DNA of 36,788 nucleotides from a virus. The notes beneath the pieces are model-generated. The model did no database searches. It was not told the origin of the DNA and was given only the letters and a program-made list of their open reading frames with translations. A program made the position numbers and the translations under genes. Within the stretch, counting starts at the first letter, position 1; every line of letters begins with the position of its first letter. Of this stretch, positions 10,086 to 27,819 are shown piece by piece. The stretch covers positions 1-36,788 of IMG/VR virus record IMGVR_UViG_3300050821_011929. One strand, given 5' to 3'.

Positions 10086-10607
10086 ATGAACACCCCGGCA
10101 GGGCAGTTTGTAGTAACATCGAATACCAAACTGGCTGCTACTTTGCGGGTGTTCGAAATCCCTCTGCCGCGGCATAACCCCGCAGTAGTGGCTGAAGTGT
10201 TCAGGCTCTCGGATCTGCGGCGGGGCAAGAAAGATCCCAAACCCAAAAAAAGGGTGTTCTGGAATTTTGAACCGCACCCTGCTGCCGCAATCGTCACAAA
10301 GGCGTTTAGTTCAACTACTGCTGATGCCGATTTTGAAAAGTTCGTCGATTCCCTGGCTCTGCAACCTAATGTAAGCGGCACGGGCCTTTCCCCCGAAAAA
10401 CTTCTCAAACTGCGGGCCTTACATTCGGCTGCTGTCGCCCAGGCTTGCAGAGAAGTGCAACACATGAAGGAACTGCTGGTGCAAGCCTGCCATGAATGCC
10501 CTGATGCAGCCTTATGGCAGGTGATCCTGAACGATGATGGCAGCATTCATTCGATGTTTCCAAAGGCAGCCAGTACAGAGACTAAATCCAAGTTTTTCAC
10601 CAAATAA
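10086..10607 (+). CDS. Hypothetical protein upstream of tail chaperone
   Basis: This 173-residue protein has an N-terminal beta part (QFVVTSNTKLAATLRVFEIP), a basic turn (RRGKKDPKPKKR), and a helical C-terminal half with LLKLRALHSAAVAQACREV and a Cys/His cluster (VQACHECPDAALW). It is not recognised. Its place just before the tail chaperone gene suggests a tail assembly role. Confidence 0.5.
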   Translation: MNTPAGQFVVTSNTKLAATLRVFEIPLPRHNPAVVAEVFRLSDLRRGKKDPKPKKRVFWNFEPHPAAAIVTKAFSSTTADADFEKFVDSLALQPNVSGTGLSPEKLLKLRALHSAAVAQACREVQHMKELLVQACHECPDAALWQVILNDDGSIHSMFPKAASTETKSKFFTK

Positions 10608-10633
10608 CCGATACCCTAAATCCCCGCACCCTT

Positions 10634-11092
10634 ATGCCTGACACCCTGCCGAACCCAGCCAATATCTTAGATGAACCTGAAACCCTGGAACTGCCTGACA
10701 CACCCGAAAAGGCATTCGTTTCAGCCCTGACACCCAAATTTTTCAACGGCAAACGCCTGGAACCGTTCAGCCTGCTGCGGCAGGTGTTTGCCCTGTCCCT
10801 AGGGGTGAGCGATTCCGCGGCAGACCGAATGCAGGATGCCATTACAATCGTTTGGTTATGCAGCCTGACTGAATGGCAGGTGAGTATTGAAATGGCAAAC
10901 AAAGTGCAGGCCCGAATCAATGCATCAAAATGGGCAGAGGGTGCGGGCATCAGCCTGACAAATTATCAGCCTGTGATGGATGTCTACAAATTGATATCGG
11001 CTGAAATCGCTGCCTCAACTGGGGCAGTTGAACAGGTTGACGGCAAAAATGGAACCATCGAAAAAAACGGTGGCGGGCAGCTTCCCAATTAG
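10634..11092 (+). CDS. Tail assembly chaperone, G-like, unshifted form
   Basis: This 152-residue protein lies directly before the tape measure gene, the standard position of the tail assembly chaperone that binds the tape measure during tail building. Helical segments (LLRQVFALSLGVSDSAADRM, ITIVWLCSLTEWQVSIEMAN) match the all-alpha character of these chaperones. The last codons before TAG include GAA AAA AAC, a canonical -1 slippery heptamer, so a fraction of ribosomes should make the longer fusion listed separately. The ordering G, frameshift, GT, tape measure is the conserved lambda-type arrangement. Confidence 0.75.
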   Translation: MPDTLPNPANILDEPETLELPDTPEKAFVSALTPKFFNGKRLEPFSLLRQVFALSLGVSDSAADRMQDAITIVWLCSLTEWQVSIEMANKVQARINASKWAEGAGISLTNYQPVMDVYKLISAEIAASTGAVEQVDGKNGTIEKNGGGQLPN

Positions 11093-16154: not shown

Positions 16155-18329
16155 ATGAATATTTACGTCGATTTGGATTCGCGCACGGCAGTAGTCTCTG
16201 CAACTCAACGCTCTGCCATTGGAACAATTGAGGTCAAAAATCAGGACACAATTGATTTCAATATTTATTTCGTTCAGGGCGGGAACTACGTCGATCTAAC
16301 GGCTGGGGCAGCCCTGAAATTCGGGTTGGTGGCAGCAGGCCAAACCACCCTGCTGGTTCTGACAACAGCATTTGCTTATCTGCATGATGCCGCAGGGAAC
16401 CCTTATTTTCAGGGGCAGCCTGTGTTCAACACAACACAGATGGCAAATGCAATGGGAACGAACAAATCGATCCTTTGCACGGGCGAAATTCGATTCGAAC
16501 AGCCTGACGGGGAAATCATTCATACCCTGTCGATTCCGTTTCAGGTTGATTTGACGTTGGTTCCTGAAACAGGGACCACCCCGCCAACAGTGAGCGGCAC
16601 TTATCCCGATGAATCAACGCTTGTTTTATTGTCGCAGGCTAATGCTGATGGTGGCTGGCTGCAGCTTGATTCAAGCGGGCTAGTTCCTGATGCCAGGATC
16701 CCCGCAACAGTTGAACGGCTGACCAACAAAAATCAGCCTGGGGGTTATCCAGGGCTAACTGCGGGCAAGGTGGCGGGCGGCATCCTGCCGATCGACGGAA
16801 GTTCAATCGGGTTGAATGGTTCGGGGCAATTAACGTTGCTGGGAACGTTCCTGGCATCCCTGACAGATTTTGAAACTACGGCAGGTGTCAGCCTGATTGA
16901 AAATGCCGCGGGTGTCCTGAACCGTTTGGTTGCAGGTACGGGCATCACTTTTGATACCAGTGTTCCTGGCGAAATCACCCTGAATGTTGTTGAGTCATCG
17001 GGCGGGATTACTGCCCTTTCCGATGCGGAAACCTCATCGGGTTTAACCCTGATTTCCAACGTTGACGGAATCCTCAAACGCCTGACGGCAGGAACGAATG
17101 TCACCCTGGATGCAACCACTACCCCGGGTTCGATCATCATTAATTGCACGGGTTATCCCCTGACTGATGCCGAAACCAGTTCGGGGGTAACTCTGATTTC
17201 TAACACCCTGGGAGTTCTGAAACGGATCGCTGCAGGTGCAAATGTCACTTTAGACACCACCACAGTTCCAGGCTCAATCATTATTGCGGCAGCGGGCGGG
17301 GGTGGTGGTTCCCTGACACTGGCTGATGAGGAAACCTCAACGGGGCAGACCCTGTTAGGGGCAACAAACGGGTTGATCAAACGACTGGTGGCAGGAACGA
17401 ATGTCACTATCGATAATACCACCACCCCGGGGGCCCTGATTCTGGCTGCATCAGGTGGTGGCGGGGGTTCTCTCACACTGGTTGACGCTGAAACCTCTGC
17501 AGGCAACACCCTGCTGGGTGCGACTAACGGACAGATCAAACGAATTATTGCAGGAACGAATTTGACCGTTGATACCACCACCACCCCGGGGGCATTGATC
17601 CTGAATGCCGCGGGTGGCGGGGGTGGTGGCGGGGCTTTCGATCCCACAACGGGGATTGATGAGACAGAGGATTTTTTCGGGGCGGCCCCCTGGAAATGGA
17701 ACTGGAAAAGCTATAGCTCGGGTGCGGGATCTGCACCAGTTAATGTTCCTTGCATTTCTGGCGACAAGACCAATGGAGTCATTCAATTAACGACAGGGGT
17801 GGGCGGATCTGGATCGGCAGGCACTTCAGGATTAGCTTTAGGGACCCTGATCGGCCAGGATTTTTTCACCGGGCAACAACCAATCACCATTACGTTTCGG
17901 GCACGGTTCGCAACCACCTTGCCAACGACTAGCAAATACAGCAGATGGATGATCGGTTTGTTTAATAATTTTGGTGATACCGTAGGCACCCGAACAGGAG
18001 TCAATAACGGGCTCTTTTTCATGTTTGATCCCAGCTTAACTGGTGATACCAGTTGGTACGCTTACGCCATGCAAGGCAACGCAGGGGCGGGCAGTCTGAC
18101 AACGGGGGTTGCTGCTGATCTGTCCTGGCACACCTTTATTTTAACGATCGGGGCATCACACGTCTATTCCTACACCATTGACGGGGCAGCCTTAACCGTT
18201 CCCCCCGCCAGTAATATTGATACCACTGCGCTTTCCCTTGGAATTCAGGGATCAAATTTCGATACAGGAGCAGGGGAAATTGATCTACAAATTGATTTCA
18301 TTCGGGTGCAGCAAACTCTAGCTAGATAA
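16155..18329 (+). CDS. Tail fibre protein with five internal repeats
   Basis: This 724-residue protein is probably the host-binding tail fibre. Residues ~1-140 form a beta-rich attachment domain (MNIYVDLDSRTAVV...), similar in style to N-termini of phage upper-baseplate and fibre proteins. Then come a PDARIPATVERL linker and five ~50-residue repeats (residues ~238-493), each starting D.ETS.G.TLI and containing .KRL.AGTN.T.D.TTTPG. Glycine stretches separate the later repeats. The C-terminal ~225 residues look like a beta-sandwich, lectin-like head (ITFRARFATTLPTTSKYSRW, SWHTFILTIGASHVYSYTID). Repeats plus a terminal sugar-binding-type domain fit a fibre shaft and tip. Confidence 0.8.
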   Translation: MNIYVDLDSRTAVVSATQRSAIGTIEVKNQDTIDFNIYFVQGGNYVDLTAGAALKFGLVAAGQTTLLVLTTAFAYLHDAAGNPYFQGQPVFNTTQMANAMGTNKSILCTGEIRFEQPDGEIIHTLSIPFQVDLTLVPETGTTPPTVSGTYPDESTLVLLSQANADGGWLQLDSSGLVPDARIPATVERLTNKNQPGGYPGLTAGKVAGGILPIDGSSIGLNGSGQLTLLGTFLASLTDFETTAGVSLIENAAGVLNRLVAGTGITFDTSVPGEITLNVVESSGGITALSDAETSSGLTLISNVDGILKRLTAGTNVTLDATTTPGSIIINCTGYPLTDAETSSGVTLISNTLGVLKRIAAGANVTLDTTTVPGSIIIAAAGGGGGSLTLADEETSTGQTLLGATNGLIKRLVAGTNVTIDNTTTPGALILAASGGGGGSLTLVDAETSAGNTLLGATNGQIKRIIAGTNLTVDTTTTPGALILNAAGGGGGGGAFDPTTGIDETEDFFGAAPWKWNWKSYSSGAGSAPVNVPCISGDKTNGVIQLTTGVGGSGSAGTSGLALGTLIGQDFFTGQQPITITFRARFATTLPTTSKYSRWMIGLFNNFGDTVGTRTGVNNGLFFMFDPSLTGDTSWYAYAMQGNAGAGSLTTGVAADLSWHTFILTIGASHVYSYTIDGAALTVPPASNIDTTALSLGIQGSNFDTGAGEIDLQIDFIRVQQTLAR
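16866..17634 (+). repeat. Five tandem shaft repeats in the tail fibre
   Basis: Units begin at 16866, 17022, 17166, 17325 and 17484 and each encode about 48-53 residues. Units 3-5 end in a run of GGT/GGC/GGG glycine codons (GGGGGSLTL). Amino-acid identity is clearly higher between neighbouring units 4 and 5 than with unit 1, consistent with stepwise duplication. Confidence 0.85.
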
Positions 18330-22193: not shown

Positions 22194-22241
22194 GAATAGT
22201 TCTAATGCTTGCCCGCTAAGTGCCGTTACTAAGGCAATATG
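22194..22241 (+). promoter_or_regulatory. Shared promoter module, copy 1 (integrase)
   Basis: The module begins GAATAGTTCTAATGCTTGCC and ends on the integrase ATG at 22239. A -10-like TACTAA lies 6 bases before the ATG, so transcription should start close to or at the start codon. Core element is GCCCGCT, as in copy 3. Confidence 0.6.
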
Positions 22242-23420
22242 AAACTATCCTACTTCGAACCCCGCAACTGCTACAGGCTGACAGTGCCCGCCCGCTATTC
22301 GGACGATGGGCAACGCAGGGCTATATATTTCGGCACCCCTGCAGAGGGCAATGCTTACATTGCCAAATTGATGAATCGGCCTGCTGCAAATCATTCAGTT
22401 CGCATCCCCCTGGGCGATCAAATGTTTTTGGAAAAACTCCGCACCCTGCTGGGCTCAAATGATGCGATCGAAACTGCCGTTGCCTTTTATCAAAAAACCG
22501 TTCTGTCAGTCAAAAAGCAGGGCACGGTGTTTGAACTGCTGGCAGCATACATCGCATGGCAGGAATCGAAAAACCGCACCCCTGACGGGATCAGACAAGT
22601 GAAGCATCAGGCGGGCAAGTTCGGGCAGGCGTTCGGAAACGAAATGGTAACTGGGTTGACCTACACAGGGATCGATCAGTGGATCCTGCAGCACCCCGGG
22701 GGCAAGGGACATTCAGCACAACACAATGCCTACATTTTCGCCCATGCCCTGATCAACTGGGCTCTCAAAAACGAATGGCTGGGCCTGGACATCATGAAAG
22801 GCATGGACAAACCCGCGGGCAACGTTTTGAAAAACGTGATGCCAGTTGCCCAGTTCGAAATGATTCTGAAAGCCTGTGCAGGCAACACAGAGTTTACATC
22901 GATCCTGCCAGTGTTGATCCTGAAAGGGTTCGCTGGGGTGCGGGGATGTGAACTGGTGGGGCAGAATGTTGGCCAGCAGAATGTGGTGATGTGGTCCGAT
23001 TTTGACTGGGCTGACGGATCGCTCAATATTCGCGGGGAAGTAGCGAAACGGACCACCCGCAAAGCAGGGGATCAACGCTATGTGATGCTCTGCGAGGCAG
23101 CAACGGTATGGCTGCAGCCCCTGGTGCAGGTGTCAGGCCCAGTGTATGCAGGCAATCGGGCAACGTTCAGCGAAACCTTGAATGCCCTGCTGGCATCAAT
23201 CGGGCAGACGATGGAACGCAACACCCTGCGGCATTCATATGCATCCTACGGGGTTGCCTGCGGCAGCGGAAAAGATATCGCCAAAAACATGGGCGATTTG
23301 GAATCACGGGTTGAAGCAACCTACAGGGATCGGGCGATCAAACCCGCGGCAGGGCTGGCATGGTTCGCCCTGCGGCCCCAGGGCCCGGGGAACATCATTC
23401 AGATGGGGGTGGCAGCATGA
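22239..23420 (+). CDS. int: Tyrosine recombinase, phage integrase
   Basis: This 393-residue site-specific recombinase would integrate the phage genome into the host chromosome. The N-terminal ~100 residues are a core-binding/arm region, and the SAM-like core-binding domain follows. In the catalytic domain the first Arg is in GVRGCEL (R235), a Lys-rich turn lies at KRTTRKAGDQRYVML, then TLRHSYASY (R331, H332, with Asn in place of the usual first His) and the nucleophile in TYRDRAIKP (Tyr 362). All essential residues are present, so it should be active. Its ATG sits at the end of promoter module copy 1 and no Shine-Dalgarno site is visible. A small HTH gene overlaps its stop. Confidence 0.92.
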   Translation: MKLSYFEPRNCYRLTVPARYSDDGQRRAIYFGTPAEGNAYIAKLMNRPAANHSVRIPLGDQMFLEKLRTLLGSNDAIETAVAFYQKTVLSVKKQGTVFELLAAYIAWQESKNRTPDGIRQVKHQAGKFGQAFGNEMVTGLTYTGIDQWILQHPGGKGHSAQHNAYIFAHALINWALKNEWLGLDIMKGMDKPAGNVLKNVMPVAQFEMILKACAGNTEFTSILPVLILKGFAGVRGCELVGQNVGQQNVVMWSDFDWADGSLNIRGEVAKRTTRKAGDQRYVMLCEAATVWLQPLVQVSGPVYAGNRATFSETLNALLASIGQTMERNTLRHSYASYGVACGSGKDIAKNMGDLESRVEATYRDRAIKPAAGLAWFALRPQGPGNIIQMGVAA

Positions 23421-23731
23421 TGCCACCCGCGGCAGGCGGGCCCGTATTCAGGCCAGTGATGCTGGATCACACACAGAACCCTTTAACCACCACAGAGGTG
23501 GCAGCCATCACAGGGTTCAGTATTCGGACGATTCGTGAACAGGCCCAGGGTGGCCGAATTCCAGGGGCGTTTAAACCATTCAATAAAGGAAGGGGCAAGG
23601 GTAAGGAACGGGTGGGGCGGGTTGAATGGAGATTCAACCGAACCCAATTTTCGCAGTGGTGGGAACAGCAGCAATCCCCCGGGGTGCAAATTTATCGGCC
23701 AATGCGTAAAAGTAGAAAGGGGGCAGCATGA
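23417..23731 (+). CDS. Helix-turn-helix protein, excisionase-like
   Basis: This 104-residue protein starts MMPPAAGG on the integrase stop (ATGA). Residues ~20-60 contain TTTEVAAITGFSIRTIREQAQGGRIPGAFKPF, a MerR/excisionase-type HTH. A basic linker (KGRGKGKERVG) and WRFNRTQFSQWWEQQQ end follow. Overlap with integrase suggests a recombination directionality factor, although it could be a transcription regulator. A clear paralogue lies at 27532. The frame is open further upstream inside integrase but ATG 23417 is preferred. Confidence 0.75.
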   Translation: MMPPAAGGPVFRPVMLDHTQNPLTTTEVAAITGFSIRTIREQAQGGRIPGAFKPFNKGRGKGKERVGRVEWRFNRTQFSQWWEQQQSPGVQIYRPMRKSRKGAA

Positions 23732-23859
23732 TGCCACCCGCGGCAGATCAACCCCAGGGGCCCGCGGCAGGCAGCCCGTTAGATCCCCGCACCATCTGGG
23801 GCCCGGGGGAATTTGGATCGGTGGGCAGCGGCAGCCCATCAAGCAGCAAACGGATTTAA
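23728..23859 (+). CDS. Small Pro/Gly-rich ORF after HTH gene
   Basis: An ATG at 23728 overlaps the HTH gene's stop and opens 43 codons beginning MMPPAADQPQGPAAGSPLD and ending at TAA 23857. The beginning mimics the start of the HTH gene (MMPPAA). Its C-terminal part is low complexity (SVGSGSPSSS) and the next, -1 frame contains a better helical protein, so this may be the front half of a frameshifted gene. Confidence 0.4.
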   Translation: MMPPAADQPQGPAAGSPLDPRTIWGPGEFGSVGSGSPSSSKRI

Positions 23860-23987
23860 TAAAACGGGCAATCCTGCTGGCCGATGCTGGGGATCACTCC
23901 ACCCTAAAACGAACCCTGATGGTATTAGGTCACTGGCATTTAGTTTTAGAACGAATCACTGCCCTGAAAAAAGAAATGCAGGAATAG
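23811..23987 (+). CDS. Helical ORF lacking a standard start (possible frameshift)
   Basis: The frame ending at TAG 23985 encodes IKQQTDLIKRAILLADAGD and then a helical STLKRTLMVLGHWHLVLERI segment, which looks like real protein. Within its non-overlapping part no ATG, GTG or TTG precedes this; only CTG (23796) or ATT/ATC (23811) are available, or a -1 shift from the 43-codon ORF at 23728. Its stop codon lies inside promoter module copy 2. The given start is only the first plausible codon. Confidence 0.35.
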   Translation: MWIGGQRQPIKQQTDLIKRAILLADAGDHSTLKRTLMVLGHWHLVLERITALKKEMQE

Positions 23988-24027
23988 TCCTAATGCTTAG
24001 CGGGTTTGAACCGTTACTATGGGTATG
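23982..24027 (+). promoter_or_regulatory. Shared promoter module, copy 2
   Basis: GAATAGTCCTAATGCTTAGC begins the module, and TACTAT follows as a -10-like box 4 bases before the ATG at 24025. The core GCGGGT is in inverted orientation relative to copies 1 and 3. Confidence 0.65.
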
Positions 24028-24243
24028 ACCAAAAACCTATTCGAAGTTCGTGATTCTAACGGCAACCTAATGAACCTGGGTGCGATCCTGGGCGGGCCCG
24101 ATGCCCTGCTGGCCCTGCGGGTTCACAATGCGATTCAATTCCTGTCTGCTGAACCGATGGCAGTTTCCTGCAATCTGGATTCGGGGCACCTAGTTTCGCG
24201 GGCCCCAGTCCAGGGGTTTTTCAACGGGCCCGATCAGGAGTGA
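24025..24243 (+). CDS. Small cargo protein 1, unknown function
   Basis: This 72-residue protein begins MTKNLFEVRDSNGN. It has a helical, hydrophobic middle (LGAILGGPDALLALRVHNA) and a more polar end. I chose the second ATG (24025) because it is the one that aligns with the only ATG in module copies 1 and 4; the first ATG (24019) overlaps the -10-like box. A strong terminator follows the stop within 20 bases. The compact promoter-gene-terminator unit is typical of phage morons. Confidence 0.6.
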   Translation: MTKNLFEVRDSNGNLMNLGAILGGPDALLALRVHNAIQFLSAEPMAVSCNLDSGHLVSRAPVQGFFNGPDQE

Positions 24244-24259
24244 AAACCCCAAGCAAAGC

Positions 24260-24284
24260 AACCCCCGGCAGCGGGGGTTTTTTT
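24260..24284 (+). terminator. Rho-independent terminator
   Basis: AACCCCCG and CGGGGGTT form a perfect 8-base stem with a GCAG loop, followed by a run of seven T at 24278-24284. It closes the first cargo unit. Confidence 0.9.
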
Positions 24285-24304
24285 GTGTCTTTACATAACG
24301 GTGT

Positions 24305-24350
24305 AAATAGTCCTAATGCTTGCCCGCTTAGAACCGATACTATGGGTATG
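24305..24350 (+). promoter_or_regulatory. Shared promoter module, copy 3
   Basis: AAATAGTCCTAATGCTTGCC begins the module, with TACTAT 4 bases before the ATG at 24348. Core GCCCGCT as in copy 1. It lies ~20 bases after the previous terminator, so it is an independent promoter. Confidence 0.65.
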
Positions 24351-24485
24351 AAAATAAACTTGTTAGCGATCGGTGGGGTGGTGGGGTTGGTTTCGTTTTT
24401 GGTGGTTCAGTTTTTACATGCCATGCAGCCTTTGTTTTCCCAGGTTGATGTTGCGAACCAAATTTTAACACAAGCCTTGAAATAA
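24348..24485 (+). CDS. Small membrane cargo protein 2
   Basis: This 45-residue protein (MKINLLAIGGVVGLVSFLVV...) has one hydrophobic span at residues ~4-22 and a polar tail ending ILTQALK. The start follows the module alignment; an ATG two codons upstream overlaps the promoter. A terminator lies 36 bases after the stop. No function is known; a membrane role in the lysogen is a reasonable guess. Confidence 0.6.
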   Translation: MKINLLAIGGVVGLVSFLVVQFLHAMQPLFSQVDVANQILTQALK

Positions 24486-24521
24486 GGATCTCTCAGGCCC
24501 CCTGGGCCCCTGGAACTAATC

Positions 24522-24546
24522 ACCCCCGCAGGCAGCGGGGGTTTTT
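24522..24546 (+). terminator. Rho-independent terminator
   Basis: ACCCCCGC and GCGGGGGT form an 8-base stem around AGGCA, followed by TTTTT (24542-24546). It resembles the terminator at 24260, suggesting that the cargo units share ancestry. Confidence 0.9.
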
Positions 24547-24567
24547 GTGTATTTACACAATGGGTGA

Positions 24568-24614
24568 GAATAGTCCTAATGCTTAGCGGGTTTGAACCGA
24601 TACCTATTGATATG
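24568..24614 (+). promoter_or_regulatory. Shared promoter module, copy 4
   Basis: GAATAGTCCTAATGCTTAGC begins the module, TACCTAT is the -10-like part, and the ATG at 24612 ends it. The core GCGGGT is inverted as in copy 2. Confidence 0.65.
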
Positions 24615-24917
24615 AAAATCGCTTTCTTATTCGCAATCGCCTTCCTGGGTGCGGGATCACTGCAGGCCCAGGAAACTGCGGCAGATCACGCCTACATCAT
24701 CAAATACGCCACCGATTTCGGCAGGGTGAATGCCGCATCCTGGCGGGCCTATGGTGATGCCCCTGATTCACCCCAAATCGTTCAGGAATTGGCTGAAATC
24801 ATGGTGGGCTGGGGCTACACAAACCCCAGCGACATCGCAGAGTTTGTGCACACTGCCCAGGCGGCAGCCTTCAAGGCAGATGCCACAATGGACACAATCA
24901 CGGGGCAGCAGCAATGA
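24612..24917 (+). CDS. Small secreted cargo protein 3
   Basis: This 101-residue protein starts with a classical signal peptide (MKIAFLFAIAFLGAGSLQA, cleavage expected after residue 19, before QE). The mature part is acidic and helical with YIIKYATDFGRVNAASWRA and VQELAEIMVGWGY. No family is recognised. It should be exported to the periplasm or envelope and could alter the lysogen surface. A longer frame exists from 24564 but is promoter sequence. It overlaps the following gene as ATGA. Confidence 0.7.
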   Translation: MKIAFLFAIAFLGAGSLQAQETAADHAYIIKYATDFGRVNAASWRAYGDAPDSPQIVQELAEIMVGWGYTNPSDIAEFVHTAQAAAFKADATMDTITGQQQ

Positions 24918-25126
24918 GCATCACCGAATACTTGTCAGCGATCGGCAAAAAGGGCGGGCAGGCTGCTGCCGCGGCAGTGGATACCAAAAAGCGGGCCCAG
25001 GCGGGCGGGCAGGCCCGATGGGCGGGACACAAAAAACTTTCCAAAGCGCAAAAAAACAAGCAACGTCGGGACCGCTGGGCGGCCCATAAGGGGGCCCAGC
25101 CAGCTACCCCAGGGGATCAGGGGTAA
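24914..25126 (+). CDS. Small basic protein with KKGGQ motifs
   Basis: This 70-residue basic protein (ITEYLSAIGKKGGQAAAAAV, later AGGQARWAGHKK and KNKQRRDRWAAHKGA) shares the GKKGG...A..R..G..ARW pattern of small phage and bacterial HTH-like or nucleic-acid-associated proteins. It is coupled to the secreted protein by ATGA overlap. A hairpin terminator lies downstream. Confidence 0.6.
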   Translation: MSITEYLSAIGKKGGQAAAAAVDTKKRAQAGGQARWAGHKKLSKAQKNKQRRDRWAAHKGAQPATPGDQG

Positions 25127-25147: not shown

Positions 25148-25188
25148 AAAACGGGCAATCCAGCAAATGGGTTGCCCGTTTTGGTTTT
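25148..25188 (+). terminator. Rho-independent terminator
   Basis: AAAACGGGCAA (25148-25158) pairs perfectly with TTGCCCGTTTT (25172-25182), an 11-base stem with 13-base loop, and T-rich sequence continues to 25188. It ends the third cargo operon. The AT-rich stretch from 25189 to 25363 holds no gene and probably carries the next promoter. Confidence 0.85.
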
Positions 25189-25363
25189 CCTAGGGGTTTT
25201 CCCATTCGGTTCTAAGTGGGTTCCTGTGGGTTTTTAGGATTTTTCGGAAAGTAAAAAAAATATTGAAGCAATATCCCCGGCAGGAACGTATGCTTTAAAA
25301 AAGGAGAAAATCCATAAATTGCTATTCATCGCTATAACCTTGTAATAAATTCCATTACACACA

Positions 25364-25636
25364 ATGCCTAGGCCCAAAACAGCAAAAAAGAAGTTAATTA
25401 GCGTAGGTTCGCTAAAGCTGGAAAAGCGGGATGCAGACGAATTCCTAGAATCCCTGGAATTCTACGGGATTGATTCGATCGCCAACATCCTGCGGCAATG
25501 CGCATTAGCAATCACACGGCATCGGAAACGGGGGGAACACATCAGGTTGCCTCTGCGATTTGAAATGAATGTTGGCCCTGATCCCACTTACAAGGATCCC
25601 CGTGGGCCAGTGATGTTGATTCATAAGGGTGAATGA
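25364..25636 (+). CDS. Paralogous small protein A, possible DNA-binding
   Basis: This 90-residue protein has a basic N-terminus (PRPKTAKKKLISVGSLKLEK), then helices DEFLESLEFYGIDSIANILRQ and ALAITRHRKRGEHI, and a final PLRFEMNV strand. The short strand followed by two helices could be ribbon-helix-helix-like. It is clearly related to the minus-strand gene at 26429-26743. An AT-rich leader (CCTTGTAATAAATTCCATTACACACA) precedes the ATG. Confidence 0.65.
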   Translation: MPRPKTAKKKLISVGSLKLEKRDADEFLESLEFYGIDSIANILRQCALAITRHRKRGEHIRLPLRFEMNVGPDPTYKDPRGPVMLIHKGE

Positions 25637-26428: not shown

Positions 26429-26743
26429 TCAGCTTTCACTGTTGTTTTCTCTGTCTACTTGATCGGCTGCCACTGATGCCAAAACGTGCCCGTATTTTTG
26501 TCGTTGCCCGGGTCTGGGTGAGATGGGGGGGCAAACATGGAACCGCAGTGGCTGCATGATGGATTCGCCCGCGGCATGGTGCCTGATCAAGGCAAGGGCA
26601 GCCTGCCGCAAATACATGGCGATTGATTCCCACCCGTAATATTTCAGGGCTGCCTTGAATTTCCCTATGTCAGCCACCCCCATTTTCAGGGTGCCGATAT
26701 TTAATTGGATCTGCTGAGTTTGAGGATCTGATTTTCTGGGCAT
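26429..26743 (-). CDS. Paralogous small protein B, possible DNA-binding
   Basis: This 104-residue protein begins MPRKSDPQTQQIQLNIGTLKM and continues with FKAALKYYGWESIAMYLRQ and AALALIRHHAAGESIMQPLRFHV. Alignment by eye with the protein at 25364 gives the same pattern GtLK...F..aL.yYG..SIa..LRQ.ALA..RH...GE.i..PLRF. ATG 26743 is chosen over an in-frame start three codons upstream. It is six bases upstream of the coiled-coil gene and so in one operon with it. Confidence 0.65.
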   Translation of the reverse strand: MPRKSDPQTQQIQLNIGTLKMGVADIGKFKAALKYYGWESIAMYLRQAALALIRHHAAGESIMQPLRFHVCPPISPRPGQRQKYGHVLASVAADQVDRENNSES

Positions 26744-26807
26744 TGTGAACAAGCGGTGAATAAGTTTTTTTTAGCTCCAATGCAACATAGCAGGGATCAA
26801 GTATTTA

Positions 26808-27531: not shown

Positions 27532-27819
27532 ATGGGCAACCCCGTTCTCTTAGATCATACCCAGCGGGCACTGAATACCACAGAGGTTGCAGCTATCATG
27601 GGCCTCAGTATTCGCAGCATTTGTGATCAGGCCCAGGCAGGTTTGATCCCCGGGGCATTCAAACCATCAGCCCGAACCAAAGGCAATAAAAAGGGTAAGG
27701 GCCTGCATTGGAGATTTAATCGAATGATTTTTATGCAGTGGTGGGAACAGCAGCAAACCCCCGGAGTGAAAATCCTTCGGCCAATGCGAAAGGCAAGACC
27801 TAGAAAACTAATACAATGA
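27532..27819 (+). CDS. Helix-turn-helix protein, paralogue of 23417 gene
   Basis: This 95-residue protein (start MGNPVLLDHTQRALNTTEVA) matches the integrase-linked HTH protein along its length: LDHTQ..L.TTEVAAI.G.SIR.I..QAQ.G.IPGAFKP, a basic linker, WRFNR..F.QWWEQQQ.PGV.I.RPMRK. Two copies in different operons suggest that one is the excisionase and the other a transcription regulator, possibly binding the phased repeats 50-100 bases upstream. The TGA overlaps the next ATG. Confidence 0.75.
   Translation: MGNPVLLDHTQRALNTTEVAAIMGLSIRSICDQAQAGLIPGAFKPSARTKGNKKGKGLHWRFNRMIFMQWWEQQQTPGVKILRPMRKARPRKLIQ

Follow-up and report, generated by a model that had tools for sequence, protein, structure and literature searches.

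Introduction

Phage morons are units made up of a promoter, a gene and a terminator, and in phage lambda the CII-controlled promoters pI, pRE and paQ place the integrase gene under one control with other lysogeny genes. Repeated modules in front of phage genes are known from the cluster K mycobacteriophages, whose extended start-associated sequences (ESAS) are 46-47 bp long in Adephagia (PMC3203893, PMC11373665). ESAS have SigA-like -35 and -10 boxes, 17-bp imperfect inverted repeats and an associated 13-bp SAS, GGGATAGGAGCCC (PMC3203893, PMC11373665). In bacterial leaderless genes, for their part, the motif TANNNT precedes the start codon by about 12 bp (PMC3160421).

The window analysed here is the whole of a 36,788-base IMG/VR virus record. 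Its lysogeny-type region, situated between a block of minus-strand genes (18.4-21.8 kb) and the replication genes (from 27.1 kb), contains four copies of an element for which the cluster K ESAS are, by analogy, the closest known system: in both cases a conserved module with a putative promoter inside is repeated in intergenic gaps before the starts of a subset of unrelated genes (PMC3203893, PMC11373665). However, the element itself is not an ESAS. It gives no sigma-70 match and its start codon lies 7-9 nt after the right-hand box; 17-bp inverted repeats of the ESAS type were not found in it (best dyad 8/12, p=0.75), and it has no Shine-Dalgarno-like part, the 13-bp SAS and a Shine-Dalgarno core both being absent at the four element starts.

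Results

All four copies lie on the plus strand and start at 22195, 23983, 24306 and 24569, each one base later than in a preceding sequence-only reading (22194 for the first), which was right in describing four near-identical modules. Each copy consists of AATAGTYCTAATGCTT, N11 and RCCGWTAC, followed after 7-9 nt by an ATG. The element is about 36 bases long. Its conserved columns begin sharply at AATAGT and reach column 35; the 30 bases 5' of it are unrelated between copies, and after TAC the copies diverge and differ in their length to the ATG. The left block of 16 nt has only one C/T difference among the four copies, and RCCGWTAC, with one A/T column and one G/A column, is the sole right-hand part that they have in common, so that the conserved columns lie in two boxes and the varying ones mostly in the spacer. 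When the window was searched with the left block, allowing up to three mismatches, the four matches were exactly the four copies, a number that none of 100 dinucleotide shuffles of the window reached (mean 0.38). With a weight matrix of 36 columns the copies scored 51-57 bits; the best other site reached 6.5 bits and shuffles of the whole window 4-10 bits. By neither method was a fifth copy found in the window, the next site being background.

Copy A (22195..22229; AATAGTTCTAATGCTT-GCCCGCTAAGT-GCCGTTAC) ends 9 nt before the integrase ATG at 22239. Copy B (23983..24017; AATAGTCCTAATGCTT-AGCGGGTTTGA-ACCGTTAC), inside which the reading frame before it terminates (TAG, ending at 23987), and copy C (24306..24340; AATAGTCCTAATGCTT-GCCCGCTTAGA-ACCGATAC) end 7 nt before small ORFs starting at 24025 and 24348, respectively, and copy D (24569..24603; AATAGTCCTAATGCTT-AGCGGGTTTGA-ACCGATAC) ends 8 nt before the ATG at 24612. 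Copies B and C are each followed by two in-frame ATGs (ATGGGTATG), the first being located at 24019 and 24342; since the first would run into the -10 box, the gene start was assigned to the second. The core, columns 16-24, has two forms: B and D carry AGCGGGTTT, and C and A carry GCCCGCTTA/TAA (22211-22219, 23999-24007, 24322-24330 and 24585-24593 in the order of the copies). These forms are approximately reverse complements of each other over five bases (GCGGG/CCCGC), and they are combined with the A/T column (column 31) in all four possible ways. ACCGATAC also occurs, together with a weak sigma-28-like -35, at 10588-10614, about 20 nt before an ATG at 10634, probably by chance.

The gene behind copy A (22239..23420, plus strand) encodes a tyrosine integrase of 393 aa (phrog_1, E 1.6e-9). 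Its stop is overlapped by the gene of an excisionase-like HTH_17 protein (23420..23731, plus strand), which presumably belongs to the int operon. Three short units follow on the same strand. Unit B contains an ORF of 72 aa with no known relative (24025..24243) and an intrinsic terminator (24260..24285) with an 8-pair stem and a T run. Unit C contains an ORF of 45 aa (24348..24485), which apparently has one membrane-spanning segment, and a terminator of the same type (24522..24547; 8-pair stem, T run). Unit D starts with an ORF of 101 aa (24612..24917) that has no known relative and carries an apparent signal peptide, MKIAFLFAIAFLGAGSLQAQ, both of these protein features being read from the sequence; an ATGA overlap joins it to a second ORF encoding a basic protein of 70 aa (24914..25126), and a terminator with a 15-pair stem (25148..25190) closes the unit. 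The GC content is 0.41 for unit C, 0.56 for units B and D, and 0.51 for the other plus-strand genes. The genes 3' of the four modules are unrelated to one another. The sequence search and the weight matrix confirm that a repeated module stands directly before the integrase gene and three small genes, as had been claimed, and its reading as regulatory is supported. The gaps between terminator and ATG measure 68 and 69 nt for units C and D; the element fills half of each and makes up most of what the two gaps have in common. With a strong terminator on one side and an ATG on the other, each of these gaps must contain a start signal.

Units B, C and D resemble morons in that a promoter-like element, whose promoter role is putative, and a terminator enclose a short gene; they differ in having the same element as the phage integrase and no private promoter. 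The proposed logic of one control for the integrase and other lysogeny genes recalls the lambda CII promoters, but a CII-like repeat (TTGC-N6-TTGC) is missing from the element, and no gene resembling CII was identified.

Some neighbouring genes are themselves repeated. An identical stretch of 28 nt, GCATGATGCCACCCGCGGCAG, is present at the int/xis junction (23408-23435) and at the junction of xis with the next gene (23719-23746), an arrangement that looks like the duplication of a gene start. A second excisionase-like HTH_17 protein (27532-27819) is paralogous to that encoded at 23420-23731, the 3' halves of the two genes showing 81% DNA identity over 83 nt. Two small proteins encoded at 25364-25636 (plus strand) and 26429-26752 (minus strand) are also paralogous (40% identical) and have relatives in the records L228 and L229; a strand-helix-helix arrangement, possibly a ribbon-helix-helix, is predicted for them with low confidence, and a fold search with a nearby paralogous small protein against the PDB gave no match.

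A hexamer-pair promoter scan of the region detected no sigma-70 site at any element, and the aligned copies match sigma-70 below chance (best mean 5.75 of 12, p=0.94), so that a sigma-70 match at the elements is not borne out. Eight sigma/promoter models were compared against the aligned copies. The sigma-28 model was the only one clearly above chance, and T7-like, sigma-32, sigma-54, sigma-B, sigma-H and ECF patterns did not fit. The sigma-28 consensus is TAAAGTTT-N11-GCCGATAA (PMC2859248), and at exactly this spacing the four copies match it at 12, 11, 12 and 12 of 16 positions. The fit is post hoc and has a p of 0.0002 when columns are permuted and of 0.0008 when the consensus is shuffled, or about 0.002 after correction for the eight models; about four other single matches of 12/16 turn up in the window by chance. 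The likeness to sigma-28 (FliA-type) promoters consists of two 8-base boxes located 11 bp apart. The differences are that the -35 reads TAATGCTT and not TAAAGTTT, that copies A and B have a T in place of the A of the -10 consensus GCCGATAA, and that eight extra invariant bases, for which a sigma factor alone does not account, lie 5' of the -35-like box. No sigma-factor family was matched among the phage proteins scanned against Pfam.

If the final six bases of the right-hand box, CGWTAC, are taken as the core -10, the start point falls 1-3 nt before the ATG or at it. As in leaderless TANNNT genes (PMC3160421), the first T of TAC lies 10-12 bp before the ATG and a Shine-Dalgarno sequence is missing. 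However, a Pribnow box is much shorter than the present signal, and TANNNT is whole in only two of the four copies: B and C have it, with the first T at 10 bp, and the final T is missing from A and D. The sequence-only reading had described an ATG 4-6 bases after a -10-like box of the form TACTAT, TACTAA or TACCTAT. A near-fixed distance to the ATG is confirmed, at 7-9 nt after TAC; a constant box is not, since it is TACTAT in B and C, TACTAA in A and TACCTA in D. A T precedes the ATG at all four element genes, compared with 10 of 35 other genes, and this gives a pyrimidine-purine step at each ATG, which is typical of start points (YR rule, PMC4782308). Of the case made earlier for leaderless messages, the geometry is compatible, but TACTAT as the -10 box is not supported; the T-A step at every ATG and the terminators before C and D, which mark out independent units, agree with that interpretation. 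The missing Shine-Dalgarno sequence was rejected as an argument for leaderless genes because its absence is phage-wide: a Shine-Dalgarno core 4-mer occurs at 2 of the 35 other phage starts, and 1.97 are expected.

Relatives of the phage are few. Among 50,697 phage records, the integrase matched that of Akkermansia phage Chantilly only (22% identity, 26% in the full alignment), and no integrase relatives were found in viral contigs, genome contigs or plasmids. A terminase search yielded relatives of only about 25% identity besides a 13,174-base IMG/VR record (L124), which shares its terminase gene with the window at 100% identity; this record, which stops short of the elements, is apparently from the same phage. 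The primase search led to one clear relative, L228, with 53% identity in the primase and 31% in the integrase, and with syntenic replication genes for a nuclease, Sak4, an exonuclease and SSB. In L228 the int gene is followed by two small ORFs and a terminator-like hairpin (read by eye). Since the second of these ORFs has an apparent signal peptide, L228 also pairs int with what seems to be a small secreted protein, without the element; no multi-copy module was found in its int region. The earlier reading had proposed related genomes as a place to look for the motif upstream of other genes. No relative carried it: the full motif had no match in the viral contigs, and the 16-mer with up to three mismatches had none in four related records. 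The 16-mer hit 119 loci in the viral contigs, all by chance and with mismatching downstream parts, and CTAATGCTT-N11-RCCGWTAC hit 15, all in chance contexts. Among the phages searched, the module is known from a single one, and recent duplication could explain part of its conservation.

Discussion

The arrangement of the element makes it probable, in our view, that it is a promoter/operator module from which int-xis and three moron-like units are transcribed, under one control, as leaderless or near-leaderless messages. The four copies, which lie among the lysogeny genes of an uncultured temperate phage, would act at the DNA level. At each of them RNA polymerase, either carrying a sigma factor other than the housekeeping one or aided by an activator that sits on the invariant AATAGTYCTAATGCTT block, would initiate transcription at the ATG or at most about 3 nt from it. 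The int-xis operon and the three short terminator-bounded units would then all be expressed as leaderless or near-leaderless messages, answering to one control. Promoter activity, the start point, the recognising factor and co-regulation are what we infer here. In a sigma-28-like version, the -35 would be TAATGCTT, the spacer 11 bp and the -10 RCCGWTAC. Within the promoter explanation, we regard sigma-28 as a tentative lead, beside an activator on the invariant left block combined with a weak -10 at TAC. It is doubtful that a sigma-28-like alternative-sigma leaderless promoter drives the integrase and the cargo in step with a cell-state programme of the host (motility or development) and with no phage repressor. 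A leaderless mechanism would be plausible if the host is Akkermansia-like, since A. muciniphila is Shine-Dalgarno-scarce (PMC10783764) and has about 10% leaderless start sites (PMC4782308).

Alternatively, an ordinary leadered promoter might draw on the tail of the upstream terminator: for units C and D, the gap sequences show TTTACA there (5/6 to TTGACA), separated from CCTAAT by 16 and 17 bp, so that the left block (CCTAAT/TCTAAT) would supply the -10 and an untranslated leader of about 25 nt would result. This is unlikely, because such a -35 is missing 5' of A and B, and CCTAAT lacks the T and the A of the first two positions of a -10 hexamer, as a result of which the scan finds no site; the would-be leader has no RNA structure, and both the conservation of RCCGWTAC and the fixed distance to the ATG would be left unexplained. 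The single orientation and asymmetry of the element, its location in short intergenic gaps and its invariant 16-nt block would also suit operator sites resembling the stoperators of cluster A phages, bound by a phage repressor or activator that controls transcription from elsewhere, and possible small DNA-binding proteins are encoded nearby (the two xis-like HTH proteins and the two paralogous predicted strand-helix-helix proteins). Yet the terminators insulate units C and D, so transcription must start between terminator and ATG; moreover, the dyad is not above chance (p=0.75 for the best 12-mer), and no classical repressor was recognised among the phage proteins scanned. We consider operator sites that are not promoters improbable.

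A role in RNA, as a translation-start-associated sequence by analogy with the SAS of the cluster K phages or as an upstream ORF, appears quite unlikely. In B and C, CTAATG does open an 11-codon ORF whose TGA overlaps the gene ATG (ATGA), and the encoded peptides, MLSGFEPLLWV* in B and MLARLEPILWV* in C, reach exactly to the start codon; the corresponding frame, however, stops after four codons in A and continues into the gene in D. Furthermore, no copy has a stable or common fold (z -0.38 to +0.86) or a Shine-Dalgarno-like sequence, and Rfam returned nothing near threshold. The tandem element-ORF-terminator cassettes of units B and C could instead suggest that the elements are junctions of inserted small gene cassettes, of the integrase type or dif-like, with the core as the exchanged segment; the near reverse complementarity of the two core forms, and their occurrence with both states of column 31, as after exchange, would agree with this. 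We hold such recombination sites to be very improbable, since the arms on either side of the core do not form an inverted repeat, GC-rich words of the core kind are common in the genome, and the element always occupies a promoter position, with none beyond the last unit.

If the promoter/operator explanation is correct, a phage whose lineage is poorly known has its integrase and small accessory genes under one switch and uses leaderless translation for its lysogeny genes. The element would also offer a short, concrete sequence for promoter activity in a Shine-Dalgarno-poor host and a rare candidate for alternative-sigma control of phage genes. Repeated phage promoters are a known trick, and it is plausible that the leaderless-placed, four-copy version is modestly new.

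Two minor observations concern integration and the tail genes. No tRNA was found in the window, and hence no tRNA-type att core; in L228, a sequence resembling the 3' half of a tRNA (979-1031) lies about 190 nt 5' of int and, judged by its sequence, is likely the attP core, ARAGORN finding no complete tRNA there. In the window, the large tail-type ORF at 16155-18329 includes an imperfect repeat of about 89 nt in four copies (17065-17615).
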